Program-made: the position numbers and the translations under genes
Assembly (NCBI GenBank): GCA_010028495.1
Contig: RHCX01000007.1
Coordinates: 1-33,961, forward strand
Direction: 5' to 3'
DNA: 33,961 nt
From: Nitrososphaeria archaeon
Lineage (GTDB): Archaea > Thermoproteota > Nitrososphaeria > Nitrososphaerales > Nitrosopumilaceae
Shown here: positions 13,645-17,616 of the stretch, piece by piece
Layout: each line of letters opens with the position of its first letter
Position numbering within the stretch: position 1 is the stretch's first letter
Notes under the pieces: model-generated
What the model was told of the DNA's origin: nothing
The model's input: only the letters and a program-made list of their open reading frames with translations
The model's database searches: none

Positions 13645-13685
13645 AAATCAACAACTATTTCTGTAACAATTGTAGTGTCATACCA

Positions 13686-14066
13686 ATGGAAAAAACCCAA
13701 AACGACATGATGGAGGCATACTCCAAGGCAACAGAAGCATGGACAAAATCGTTTCAAATGATGCAAGAGCAGGCAACAGAAGCATTCAAGCTCTACATAC
13801 AGGGCTTTGAGCAGGCGCTCAAATCATCGAACTTCGAGGAGATGAAAAAATACAACGAAATCTGGCAGAACATGGCAAAGCAGTTCGAGCAGAATCCGTA
13901 TCAATGGTCACAAAAAGCGTGGGAAGACCTCTGGAAAGAGTCGGGATTCGTCTCATTCAAGGCGTTTTTCGATAACTGGCAAAACGTCTGGAAGAACTTT
14001 GCCAAGGACGCAGAGGACAAGTCCAAAGAAGCACTAGACAAAATACAAAAGCAAAACAAGCCCTAG
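13686..14066 (+). CDS. Phasin-like / PhaE-like helical protein
   Basis: The 126-residue protein is entirely helical and amphipathic, with many Lys, Glu, Gln and seven Trp (for example YNEIWQNMAKQFEQNPYQW and FFDNWQNVWKNFAKDAEDKS). This composition and heptad-like spacing are those of phasins and of the C-terminal part of PHA synthase subunit PhaE, which coat polyhydroxyalkanoate granules. No PhaC synthase is present in the window, so the storage-granule role is an inference. The ATG at 13686 lies in ATACCAATGG, a sequence that recurs at 15713-15722. The leader contains an inverted repeat. No signal peptide or membrane span is present. Confidence 0.6.
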   Translation: MEKTQNDMMEAYSKATEAWTKSFQMMQEQATEAFKLYIQGFEQALKSSNFEEMKKYNEIWQNMAKQFEQNPYQWSQKAWEDLWKESGFVSFKAFFDNWQNVWKNFAKDAEDKSKEALDKIQKQNKP

Positions 14067-14315: not shown

Positions 14316-14804
14316 TTAGTTTCGTGGTTTCCAGGATGAGATCCAAGAGTTGATGACATTTTGACCTAGTTCCACAAATGCAGAAGCATTTTGGTTTACG
14401 GTCTTGACATTTTGGATTGTTGCATCGAATGCAGTCTGGACAACTTTGTTGTTTGTCTCAACTGCCTTTACGAATGCCTCGGTTGCATCAGAGACTGCAG
14501 TAACTGTTTGTTCTGGCAAAGAATAGTTGATGCCGATTTTGTTGGCAACACTTTGTTGGATTGTTGCTGATGTGTGCACAAAGTTGGTCCAAGAAGTAAT
14601 TAGTTCTTGACTCAAAGTTGTGTATGATTGTAGTGTCTGTGCTGCAGATTTGTCCAATGATGTCTTTAGCTTGTCAAAGCTCTTGGTGTATACTGAAAAC
14701 ACGTCTTTTGTTGTTTCGTTTGTTGACATTTTGTTTTGCACCTTTTGTTGTGGAGAAAAGATTACCTGTTCCTTTTTGTGGCTTTGGTTGTTCTTTCCAT
14801 CCAT
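14316..14804 (-). CDS. Phasin-like helical protein
   Basis: The 162-residue protein is helical and rich in Thr, Ser, Gln and Val, with no Cys: SVYTKSFDKLKTSLDKSA, then LSQELITSWTNFVHTSATIQ and VVQTAFDATIQNVKTVNQNA. This pattern resembles PhaP-type phasins, which sit at the surface of storage granules. The ATG at 14804 is favoured over one at 14729 because a TATATAAAT box centred near 14832 lies 28 bases upstream, so the mRNA is leaderless. An inverted repeat, ATTGGT-N7-ACCAAT, covers the transcription start and start codon, so the gene is probably under strong repression control. It converges with the other phasin-like gene. Confidence 0.65.
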   Translation of the reverse strand: MDGKNNQSHKKEQVIFSPQQKVQNKMSTNETTKDVFSVYTKSFDKLKTSLDKSAAQTLQSYTTLSQELITSWTNFVHTSATIQQSVANKIGINYSLPEQTVTAVSDATEAFVKAVETNNKVVQTAFDATIQNVKTVNQNASAFVELGQNVINSWISSWKPRN

Positions 14805-14880
14805 TGGTTATTACAACCAATGTGTGGTATATAAATATTTGGTAGTATTTGGTAATGATTGGTAATGAACACCAATATTG
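14802..14880 (-). promoter_or_regulatory. Operator array of the phasin-like gene: inverted repeats and 10-base direct repeats
   Basis: CATTGGTT (14802-14809), a 5-base spacer and AACCAATG (14815-14822) form a perfect inverted repeat over the start codon. The TATA box is at 14829-14837. Beyond it TTTGGTA, TTTGGTA and ATTGGTA have GGTA exactly at 14841, 14851 and 14861, one helical turn apart, and ATTGGT at 14858-14863 pairs with ACCAAT at 14871-14876 with a 7-base spacer. The site over the start fits a repressor; the upstream phased sites fit cooperative binding. Confidence 0.7.
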
Positions 14881-14901
14881 CACGTACGAATCATGGTTGA
14901 A

Positions 14902-15126
14902 TTAATGGTCGATTTCTATCTTTTTTGTCTGCTTCATGTATTTTGTCTTATATTGCCCTGGTGTGGCCTGGATCTGAGTTTGTAGTTGCAACATGGACAC
15001 CACAAACCATCCCATGCAATAAAAATCTCGCACCCATTACAGCGTTTTTGTCCTGATGAGTATCTGTCTTTTCCTATCTGTTTTGTTGCTCTGTACCTGA
15101 CAGATTCCGCGGCAAGTTATTGCCAT
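14902..15126 (-). pseudogene. Frameshifted CRGIC/WDGLWCPCC-type zinc protein gene
   Basis: Three pieces in two frames form one protein of about 75 residues. The ATG at 15126 gives MAITCRGICQ; a shift near TGTCAGG (about 15097-15103) leads to RYRATKQIGKDRYSSGQKRC, NGCEIFIAWDGLWCPCCNYK and LRSRP; a second shift near 14970 returns to the first frame with GQYKTKYMKQTKKIEIDH and the TAA at 14902. The CxxC and CPCC pairs make a zinc ribbon, a small protein type I associate with thaumarchaea. The changes look like losses of two bases and one base. The unshifted first frame stops early, so as written the gene is dead. It may be a sequencing artefact. Confidence 0.65.
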
Positions 15127-15226
15127 GTCTTAGACCATCGCCAAACAAATTTCCAACATTATGAGGATCCAAATTAACGCCGCACTTGTTCAAAAGCATT
15201 ATGTTGCTGCCAGTTTATTCCACTTG

Positions 15227-15250
15227 ATACCAAGCAATGGTATAAAATGG
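15227..15250 (+). promoter_or_regulatory. TATA box with overlapping ATACC-N7-GGTAT inverted repeat
   Basis: ATACC (15227-15231) and GGTAT (15239-15243) form an inverted repeat with a 7-base spacer that overlaps the TATAAAAT box at 15241-15248. Transcription would start near 15271, before the paralog B gene. The 7-base spacing is the same as in the ATTGGT operators nearby, although the half-site differs. Confidence 0.45.
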
Positions 15251-15288
15251 CTTTCTGCAAGAGCTAATCTTTTATTCATTTGTTGTAT

Positions 15289-15666
15289 ATGATATCGTTG
15301 ACCGACAAACCTGCAAATTATTCTGCCATATGCGATCAAATTATGAAGATGGATCCTAAAATTCGATTTGTTGGTATAATCAACAACAAGGGAAGACTAG
15401 TTGAGGGCGGTATGAAAGAAGGAGTGCCAACGCTTTCTAGTCCAAAGGAGGACGAAATGATATTCATGGAACTATTGCTTCGCATCAAAATGCGTCAAGA
15501 GTTTGATGCACAGCTAGGCAAAGTAAAATTTGCATTGGCACTACGCGAAAAAATTCTAGAGATGAGCTTTCAAATCGATAATCATGTTCTTTTTGTCGTC
15601 TCTGAACCAGACGAAGGCTTGACATTGCCAAAAAAAATATCTCAGATAATTAGCGGATATGTCTAG
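15289..15666 (+). CDS. Thaumarchaeal profilin/roadblock-like small protein (paralog B)
   Basis: The protein of 125 residues is the second member of the three-copy family. Alignable parts with paralog A are IMKMDPKIRFVGIINNKGRL, the central helix EDEMIFMELLLRIKMRQEF and the strand pair KVKFALALREKILEMSFQI, then a final SEPDEGLTLPKKISQII. The N-terminal alternation of strand and helix is like roadblock or longin sensors; no catalytic residues are apparent. I took the ATG at 15289; an in-frame TTG at 15280 would add three residues. The TATA box at 15241 implies a leader of about 18 bases. Confidence 0.65.
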   Translation: MISLTDKPANYSAICDQIMKMDPKIRFVGIINNKGRLVEGGMKEGVPTLSSPKEDEMIFMELLLRIKMRQEFDAQLGKVKFALALREKILEMSFQIDNHVLFVVSEPDEGLTLPKKISQIISGYV

Positions 15667-15686
15667 ATCGACTCTACTACCAATAT

Positions 15687-15740
15687 CTTTATATGGTAAT
15701 TGATGGACGATAATACCAATGGTTGGTAAACAAAACCAAT
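15687..15740 (+). promoter_or_regulatory. Promoter and ATTGGT/ACCAAT operator of paralog C
   Basis: A TTTATATGG box at 15688-15696 predicts a start near 15717. ATACCAATGG (15713-15722) and GTTGGT-N7-ACCAAT (15722-15740) cover that point. The half-sites and 7-base spacer match those in front of the phasin-like gene at 14804, and both lie over the predicted transcription start. A GAGGTG Shine-Dalgarno motif is present at about 15767-15772, before the ATG at 15782. Confidence 0.6.
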
Positions 15741-15781: not shown

Positions 15782-16201
15782 ATGGTCTCCCAAGAAATCA
15801 GAAAGCTTGCCAGCGAAATTTTCAAAACAGATTCACAAATTGTCCATTTGGGCCTAATAGACCTAGAAGGCCACGTGTTAATTGATCAATCGTCACTGTC
15901 ATCAGTACCAATAGATCCAGACAAAGACAGAATGATGTTTTACTATCAAGTCGGTTTGAGACGAAGCAGACGAGAGCACTTTAACGAAGCGTACGGCATG
16001 ACACAATATGTTCACATTCTCAGAGAAAAAATGCAACAGCTAATTCTGTATCTCCCAATGCTTACCGTATATCTTACAATTGACAAGGATCTCAGCCCAG
16101 ATCGAGTTGCGCAAATGGCAAAAAAAATCCAAGGCATCGACAAGGCAATACTGGACGATGCCGTAAACAGCCTCTTCTTTGCCAATAAAACAAAAATCTA
16201 A
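15782..16201 (+). CDS. Thaumarchaeal profilin/roadblock-like small protein (paralog C)
   Basis: The 139-residue third member of the family has IFKTDSQIVHLGLIDLEGHVL, the helix DRMMFYYQVGLRRSRREHFN, the strand pair TQYVHILREKMQQLILYL and the final helix DRVAQMAKKIQ. The HILREK motif aligns with LALREK of paralog B. It has a C-terminal extension of about 20 residues not present in the others. The start ATG follows a GAGGTG ribosome-binding site, unlike most genes here, in accordance with the leader of about 65 bases that holds the operator. The aldehyde dehydrogenase gene begins 17 bases after its stop and may be cotranscribed. Confidence 0.68.
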   Translation: MVSQEIRKLASEIFKTDSQIVHLGLIDLEGHVLIDQSSLSSVPIDPDKDRMMFYYQVGLRRSRREHFNEAYGMTQYVHILREKMQQLILYLPMLTVYLTIDKDLSPDRVAQMAKKIQGIDKAILDDAVNSLFFANKTKI

Positions 16202-16218: not shown

Positions 16219-17616
16219 ATGAGTACCAAAACCATTACTACCATTAATCCCGCTACCGGGGAGCCAATCTCAACTTTTGAATCCATGTCAAAAGACCAAG
16301 TCAGAAATCAGGTGTCCAAATCAAGATCTGCATTTTCAAGCTGGAAAAATGATCTGGAGACAAGACGGGCCGCATTATACCATCTCACCGATTATCTGCG
16401 CAAAAACAAGGTAAGGCTTGCAGAAATGGCCACAAAGGAAATGGGAAAGGTCCTAAAGGAAGCAATATCAGAGGTCGAAAAATGCGCATGGGCACTAGAG
16501 TTCTATGCAGACAATGGTGGAACCTTATTGTCTGATGAAATACTAAACACAGATGCGCGAAAAAGCTTTGTCACATTTGAGCCACTTGGAATAATCGGCT
16601 CTATTATGCCATGGAACTTTCCATACTGGCAGGCACTAAGATTTGCAGCGCCAAGCCTGATTGCAGGAAACACGATAATCATGAAGCCATCAAGTGTTAC
16701 AATGCAGTGCGGAATAGAGATTGAAAAGGCATGCAGGGAAGCCGGAGTGCCAGACGGGGTTTTCCAGACCTTGGTTGGAGGATCAGAATCTGCAAATCAC
16801 CTAATCGAAGCAGATGTCAATGCAGTCACATTTACCGGCAGCACCAAAGTCGGCGCAATGGTTGGACAAAAATCCGCATCATTACTAAAAAAATGTGTTC
16901 TGGAGCTTGGCGGAAGTGATCCCTTCATAGTTCTTGAGGACGCCAATGTGGAAAAGGCAGCAAATGGCGCAATAAAGGGACGATTCATCAACTGCGGCCA
17001 AAGTTGCGTTGCATCAAAAAGATTTTTCGTTTCGCGCAAAATCGCAAATGAATTCATAGAAAGATTCGTCCATAACGCAGAACGCCTTCAGGTGGGGGAT
17101 CCAATGGCAATTGAAAATGATATTGGACCGCTTGTAAACAAGGGCGCACTAGAAAACATCTCATCAATGGTTGAGGACGCAAAAAAGAAAGGAGCTCAAA
17201 TTCTGACCGGCGGCCAGCAAATAGGAAACAAGGGCTACTTTTACAAACCTACAATACTTACAGGCCTGACTCCGGACATGAGAATCTATAATGAAGAAAC
17301 ATTTGGACCCGTAGCCCCAGTCACAATATTTGATGATGAAAAGGATGCAATCCGAATGGCAAATGACTCCGAGTATGGCCTTGGGGCAAGCATCTGGACT
17401 GACAATCTCAAAAAAGCAGAACAGCTATCAAAGCAAATCGAATCCGGAATAGTAACTGTGAATAATGTAGTAATATCTGATCCTCGAGTCCCGTTTGGCG
17501 GAATAAAGCATAGCGGCTTTGGCAGGGAGCTCTCAAAATACGGAATGCTAGAGTTTGTCAACATCAAATCCATCCGATTTTACGACCAGCTGATCCACCA
17601 CCATTACGTGGAATAA
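16219..17616 (+). CDS. NAD(P)-dependent aldehyde dehydrogenase, succinate-semialdehyde type
   Basis: The 465-residue enzyme is a full-length aldehyde dehydrogenase close in sequence to E. coli Sad/YneI: INPATGEPIS at the start, MPWNFPYWQ, MKPSSV, the FTGSTKVG cofactor loop, VLELGGSDPF with catalytic Glu near 229, INCGQSCVASKRF with catalytic Cys near 263 and EETFGPVAPVTIF. It would oxidise succinic semialdehyde to succinate. In autotrophic thaumarchaea, succinic semialdehyde is also an intermediate of the 3-hydroxypropionate/4-hydroxybutyrate cycle, and relatives have been proposed as CoA-acylating reductases; the sequence alone cannot tell these apart. It lies 17 bases behind paralog C. Confidence 0.88.
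   Translation: MSTKTITTINPATGEPISTFESMSKDQVRNQVSKSRSAFSSWKNDLETRRAALYHLTDYLRKNKVRLAEMATKEMGKVLKEAISEVEKCAWALEFYADNGGTLLSDEILNTDARKSFVTFEPLGIIGSIMPWNFPYWQALRFAAPSLIAGNTIIMKPSSVTMQCGIEIEKACREAGVPDGVFQTLVGGSESANHLIEADVNAVTFTGSTKVGAMVGQKSASLLKKCVLELGGSDPFIVLEDANVEKAANGAIKGRFINCGQSCVASKRFFVSRKIANEFIERFVHNAERLQVGDPMAIENDIGPLVNKGALENISSMVEDAKKKGAQILTGGQQIGNKGYFYKPTILTGLTPDMRIYNEETFGPVAPVTIFDDEKDAIRMANDSEYGLGASIWTDNLKKAEQLSKQIESGIVTVNNVVISDPRVPFGGIKHSGFGRELSKYGMLEFVNIKSIRFYDQLIHHHYVE

Follow-up and report, generated by a model that had tools for sequence, protein, structure and literature searches.

The palindromic repeats around a phasin-like gene of a Nitrosopumilaceae archaeon raise the question of whether they are operators and, if so, which protein binds them and which genes it controls. 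The window, i.e., the whole stretch of 33,961 nucleotides that was analysed, corresponds to contig C160 of a draft genome (G000) of 1.63 Mb. The original prediction described copies of ATTGGT-N7-ACCAAT at 14803–14821, 14858–14876, and 15722–15740, and GGTA repeats with a 10-base step at 14841, 14851, and 14861. All three palindromes are exact, and both sets are located where it placed them. The prediction treated the palindromes as isolated elements, which does not hold: they are parts of longer arrays of TTGGTA/TACCAA half-sites phased by 10 bp.

The scan of the window for the 19-mer with up to two mismatches gave 12 matches against 8.1 expected, and 19 of 100 shuffles reached as many, so this number is not above chance. 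Single TGGTA-N6-ACCAAT motifs occur zero to four times per genome, even in genomes devoid of the regulator described below. The single-palindrome scan was rejected as an operator detector for its lack of specificity, and the tandem-pair pattern alone was also rejected, giving 272 matches with two mismatches in the own genome versus 193 in the control. An array score was used instead, which sums the bits of three WTGGTA/TACCAW half-sites of either strand placed at a centre-to-centre step of 10 bp; direct, inverted, and everted pairs share one 10-bp grid when the second G of TTGGTA is taken as the centre. Because the half-sites were weighted manually on the basis of these same promoters, the array scan is not fully independent of them. 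Ten positions in the window reached at least 18 bits, with 0.05 expected. The arrays occupy three promoters, those of the phasin-like gene (31.0 bits), the Roadblock-fold gene 15782 (28.5 bits), and the DUF6659 gene 15289 (20.9 bits), while the top score among 300 first-order Markov shuffles of the window was 25.6 bits. It is the phased array, not the single palindrome, that exceeds chance. The half-site and its spacing equal the AbrB consensus, TGGNA-N5-TGGNA (PMC11497800), which is matched by TGGTA at 14840, 14850, and 14860. Megablast against plasmids gave no match.

The phasin-like gene (14316–14729, reverse strand) likely starts with the ATG at 14727–14729, preceded by AAGGTG, rather than at 14804. 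Its product is a putative granule protein, as indicated by a weak PhaE match, orthologs, and synteny. The match to the PHA synthase subunit PhaE model TIGR01834 (E 6e-4) is below the cut-off, and among the curated phasin models (PF05597/PF09361) none exceeded it, with only sub-threshold PhaE/phasin matches being detected. In many other genera, this gene lies directly downstream of the regulator gene, at a distance of about 20–50 bp, an arrangement like that of haloarchaeal phaRP but not present in the genome studied here. The operator array of the gene (14805–14874, reverse strand) contains two of the three palindromes, 14803–14821 and 14858–14876. Half-sites centred at 14807, 14817, and 14827 cover the expected transcription start and the TATA edge, and those centred at 14842, 14852, 14862, and 14872 are located upstream of TATA. 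Orthologous promoters within the genus show the same phase, with up to four half-sites, 15 bp across the TATA box, and then up to three half-sites; each of them retains most of the half-sites.

Two further genes with such sites lie on the forward strand. The first encodes a DUF6659 protein (15289–15666; PF20364, Pfam E 1.9e-15), a paralog of the product of the gene adjoining phaE (L018:12077-12436). Its promoter contains a two-half-site operator, TACCAAGCAATGGTA (15228–15242), with centres at 15230 and 15240, and a 10-bp pair is found at the matching place in all four genomes compared (G000, G256, G304, and G009). In the congener G009 this promoter scores 17.7 bits, which is inside the background, so its membership in the regulon rests on position and conservation. 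The array of gene 15782 (15678–15740, forward strand) has centres at 15696, 15716, 15726, and 15736, spaced by 20, 10, and 10 bp, and a further TACCAA at 15678, just ahead of the TATA-like TCTTTATAT. The half-site at 15713–15722, pointed out previously, is present and belongs to this array, which is kept in all four genomes with the gene at this place, again G000, G256, G009, and G304.

The product of gene 15782 (15782–16201) gave no match to sequence models, and its fold was assigned from structure prediction. The AlphaFold2 model (mean pLDDT 88.9) has MglB as the top Foldseek match (E 1.7e-6, TM 0.69–0.71), and a Roadblock/LC7 fold similar to that of MglB is thus confidently predicted. The functionally uncharacterized DUF6659 family aligns with this product at low identity, and DUF6659/Roadblock-type copies are present beside both PHA-related loci (15289–15666 and 15782–16201 in the window; L018:12077-12436). 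Roadblock proteins often partner small GTPases, hence a role of the 15782 product in the placement or sensing of PHA granules is possible. The following gene encodes an aldehyde dehydrogenase (16219–17616, forward strand; PF00171, E 2.9e-152). It follows 15782 also in G256 and G009, and the two genes are probably co-transcribed. A short gene downstream of the 15782 ortholog at another locus (L111, G311:C30) begins with MKGKSNHTDPSTMFKDWIQSGKNQNEFM and is similar to the regulator's N-terminus; it may perhaps encode a regulator paralog with a diverged AbrB domain or none.

The occurrence of the sites was analysed by pattern searches in the own genome, while the array score was applied to the window and to the congener G009. 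Outside the window, exact palindromes are limited to a single coding sequence that is present at two contig ends. With up to one mismatch, the sole match outside the window that coincides with a gene start and a TATA-like box is G000:C68:9990-10008, in the regulator gene; the remaining ones were judged to lie inside coding frames. The complete genome of G009 was scanned for arrays over 98.8% of its length (1.6 Mb), and every score above 23 fell at three loci, namely the regulator start, the phasin promoter, and the 15782 promoter, while the reversed-sequence control gave no score of 24 or more. Rather than occurring at random places, the arrays are confined to a few promoters of the whole congener genome, and those of the phasin, 15782, and DUF6659 genes are conserved in the orthologous promoters of relatives. 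Conservation and confinement together support the proposal that a shared operator covers the predicted transcription starts of the phasin-like and sensor-like genes.

The extension of this control to a whole module is not borne out. The phaE and hydrolase promoters score just 1.9 and 1.4 bits, and since the phaE promoter is devoid of sites, the module as a whole is not under this control. The second phasin-like gene (13686–14066) has no conserved site either. The half-site at 13680–13689 (forward strand), predicted over its ATG, exists, but it is missing from all seven close orthologous promoters, so it was rejected as an operator of this gene and is judged to lie outside the system, probably as a chance occurrence. 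The orthologs of 13686 share a different upstream block, approximately CAACAACTATTT, about 35–50 bp before the start, perhaps a TATA region or another site.

A single regulator for the shared sites had been postulated but left unnamed. This postulate is supported, and the candidate is an AbrB-domain phasin-like protein of 135 aa encoded on another contig (G000:C68:9987-10394, locus L018), adjoining phaC (TIGR01836, 1.2e-125) and phaE. It matches the AbrB model TIGR01439 over the cut-off (E 4.7e-7) at its C-terminus (residues 94–126), and conservation along the protein is highest in this AbrB half. The N-terminus is helical and phasin-like; the AlphaFold model (pLDDT 53) is too poor for a fold search, so the phasin nature of this part is deduced from the helix pattern and the gene context. 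Among 300 genomes of the order, 184 encode an ortholog. The close relatives of the regulator carry the name Candidatus Nitrosotenuis, N. chungbukensis MY2 among them; the window is thus Candidatus Nitrosotenuis-like and most likely derives from an ammonia-oxidizing member of the Nitrosopumilaceae. Within the family, the regulator was found in 33 of 35 phaC-positive genomes and in none of eight phaC-negative ones (p 3e-7). In one genome of the same genus (G251), phaC is present and orthologs of the regulator and phasin were not detected, reflecting either loss or an assembly gap.

The gene of the candidate carries an array at its own start codon; the consensus of the array, ATTACCATGAGTGGTAATNATAACCAAT, follows a TTAAATACC box at a distance of about 25 bp. 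The array occurs in a single register at 72 of 78 named Nitrosopumilaceae loci, versus 0.27% of random places, and it is also present at the regulator start in a Cenarchaeum genome (G247; 18.7 bits). Because the array is partly coding, synonymous codon choice was tested. Gly3 is encoded by GGT in 28 of 29 sequences versus 100 of 254 glycines in the rest of the gene, and Asn6 by AAC in 26 of 26 versus 124 of 296 (p ~7e-10 in both cases); these counts come from related sequences, not independent events, and the p values overstate independence. Operator-compatible codons are nearly always used at these two positions, unlike in the rest of the gene, and selection thus appears to act on the DNA word itself. 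The regulator starts in Nitrososphaeraceae and in family f2 contain no array, despite conservation of the AbrB domain. Nitrososphaeraceae therefore have either another site or the same one elsewhere, and DNA recognition or site position may have shifted in this family. The AbrB loop reads mostly SGGRISIP in Nitrososphaeraceae (L216–L222), as in haloarchaea, versus SNGRISIP in Nitrosopumilaceae.

The arrays, their phase and conservation, their confinement in one congener, and the domains and synteny of the candidate are observed directly. We infer from them binding, repression, granule binding, and a PHA response, and consider it very likely that an autoregulated, AbrB-type PhaR circuit of ammonia-oxidizing archaea uses these sites as its operators. 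The regulator would bind arrays of TTGGTA half-sites, in either orientation, one helical turn apart. Bound arrays would cover the transcription start and flank the TATA box, so that the promoter of the regulator gene itself would be blocked, together with those of the phasin-like gene, the DUF6659 gene, and the operon of the Roadblock-fold and aldehyde dehydrogenase genes. If Haloferax PhaR is taken as the analogue, PHA granules would, as they grow, pull the regulator off the DNA via its phasin-like part, and such titration would release phasin synthesis in step with the granule surface.

The identity of the binding protein deserves consideration, as AbrB-type sites are alike among family members and the genome encodes five other AbrB-domain proteins (four PhoU-type of ~350 aa and one of 55 aa). 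One of these might bind the sites, with the PHA-linked protein being merely one of the targets. This seems improbable to us: arrays are located at the PHA-linked protein's own start family-wide, the regulator and phaC are gained and lost together, and the same word occurs in two haloarchaeal PhaR promoters. Still less credible is an explanation of the repeats as common elements of promoters or translation starts, be it BRE/TATA context or an RNA element located at the start codon. The array does overlap the start codon of the regulator gene, and TATA boxes lie about 25 bp upstream, but orthologs preserve the 10-bp phase to the exact base, and the arrays occur at very few promoters genome-wide, with neighbouring pha promoters lacking them.

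The direction of control could also be the opposite, with the protein acting as an activator or dual regulator whose half-sites upstream of TATA recruit basal factors. The phasin and 15782 promoters indeed also have half-sites directly upstream of the TATA box. Nevertheless, all promoters but that of the DUF6659 gene also have half-sites over the expected start, and haloarchaeal PhaR is a repressor (PMC9049629), which leaves activation a rather unlikely option. The autoregulated repressor circuit remains our preferred reading.

That ammonia-oxidizing archaea store PHA is known from their synthase genes as well as from granule imaging and Raman data (PMC11082331), but the literature search retrieved no paper connecting AbrB to PHA, phasin, or PhaR in this group. 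With a candidate regulator named, the operator spelled out exactly, and the targets narrowed to a short list, the way in which these globally abundant nitrifiers control carbon storage becomes directly testable.

Among known systems, the original prediction pointed to bacterial PhaR. The Cupriavidus-type circuit follows the same logic, with an autoregulated phasin repressor and a separate phaP promoter, but the archaeal candidate showed no bacterial PhaR (PHB accumulation regulator) domain in Pfam at E 0.5 or better, and the haloarchaeal AbrB-type PhaR is the better model. Bacillus subtilis AbrB shares the DNA-binding domain family and the TGGNA-N5-TGGNA spacing; however, it is a global transition-state regulator without a phasin part, whereas here a few PHA-linked promoters would be targeted.

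According to reviews, haloarchaeal PhaR has a C-terminal AbrB-like domain and represses phaRP, whose promoter contains four tandem repeats (PMC9049629; PMC7137286). Among 72,556 plasmid records, the top matches to the regulator were haloarchaeal AbrB proteins, two of them in the phaR position of a PHA cluster. Their phaR promoters contain the same phased half-sites at −70/−60/−50 and −79/−69/−59, and none of 874 haloarchaeal control windows reached 14, so that the lower promoter score was not attained. Most haloarchaeal phaC loci on plasmids have no annotated AbrB gene beside phaC, hence just these two promoters were tested. Like PhaR of Haloferax mediterranei, the autorepressor of phaRP, the candidate has a C-terminal AbrB domain (60% identical to that of H. 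larsenii), is linked to phaP and phaE/phaC (phaC and phaE adjoin it here, and the phasin-like gene is downstream in other genera), and has repeated elements in its own promoter, with 10-bp-phased TGG half-sites common to two species. It differs in its longer N-terminus of another sequence, in the overlap of the array with its own start codon, in the location of the Nitrosotenuis phasin-like gene elsewhere, with its own array, and in a predicted regulon that adds the DUF6659 and Roadblock-fold genes. A PhaR operator code common to haloarchaea and Nitrososphaerota, combined with a clade regulon in which Roadblock/MglB-fold proteins position or partition PHA granules with a small GTPase, is a speculative extension to which we assign a low probability. 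The word held in common with haloarchaea suggests, at the sequence level, an old archaeal PHA switch.
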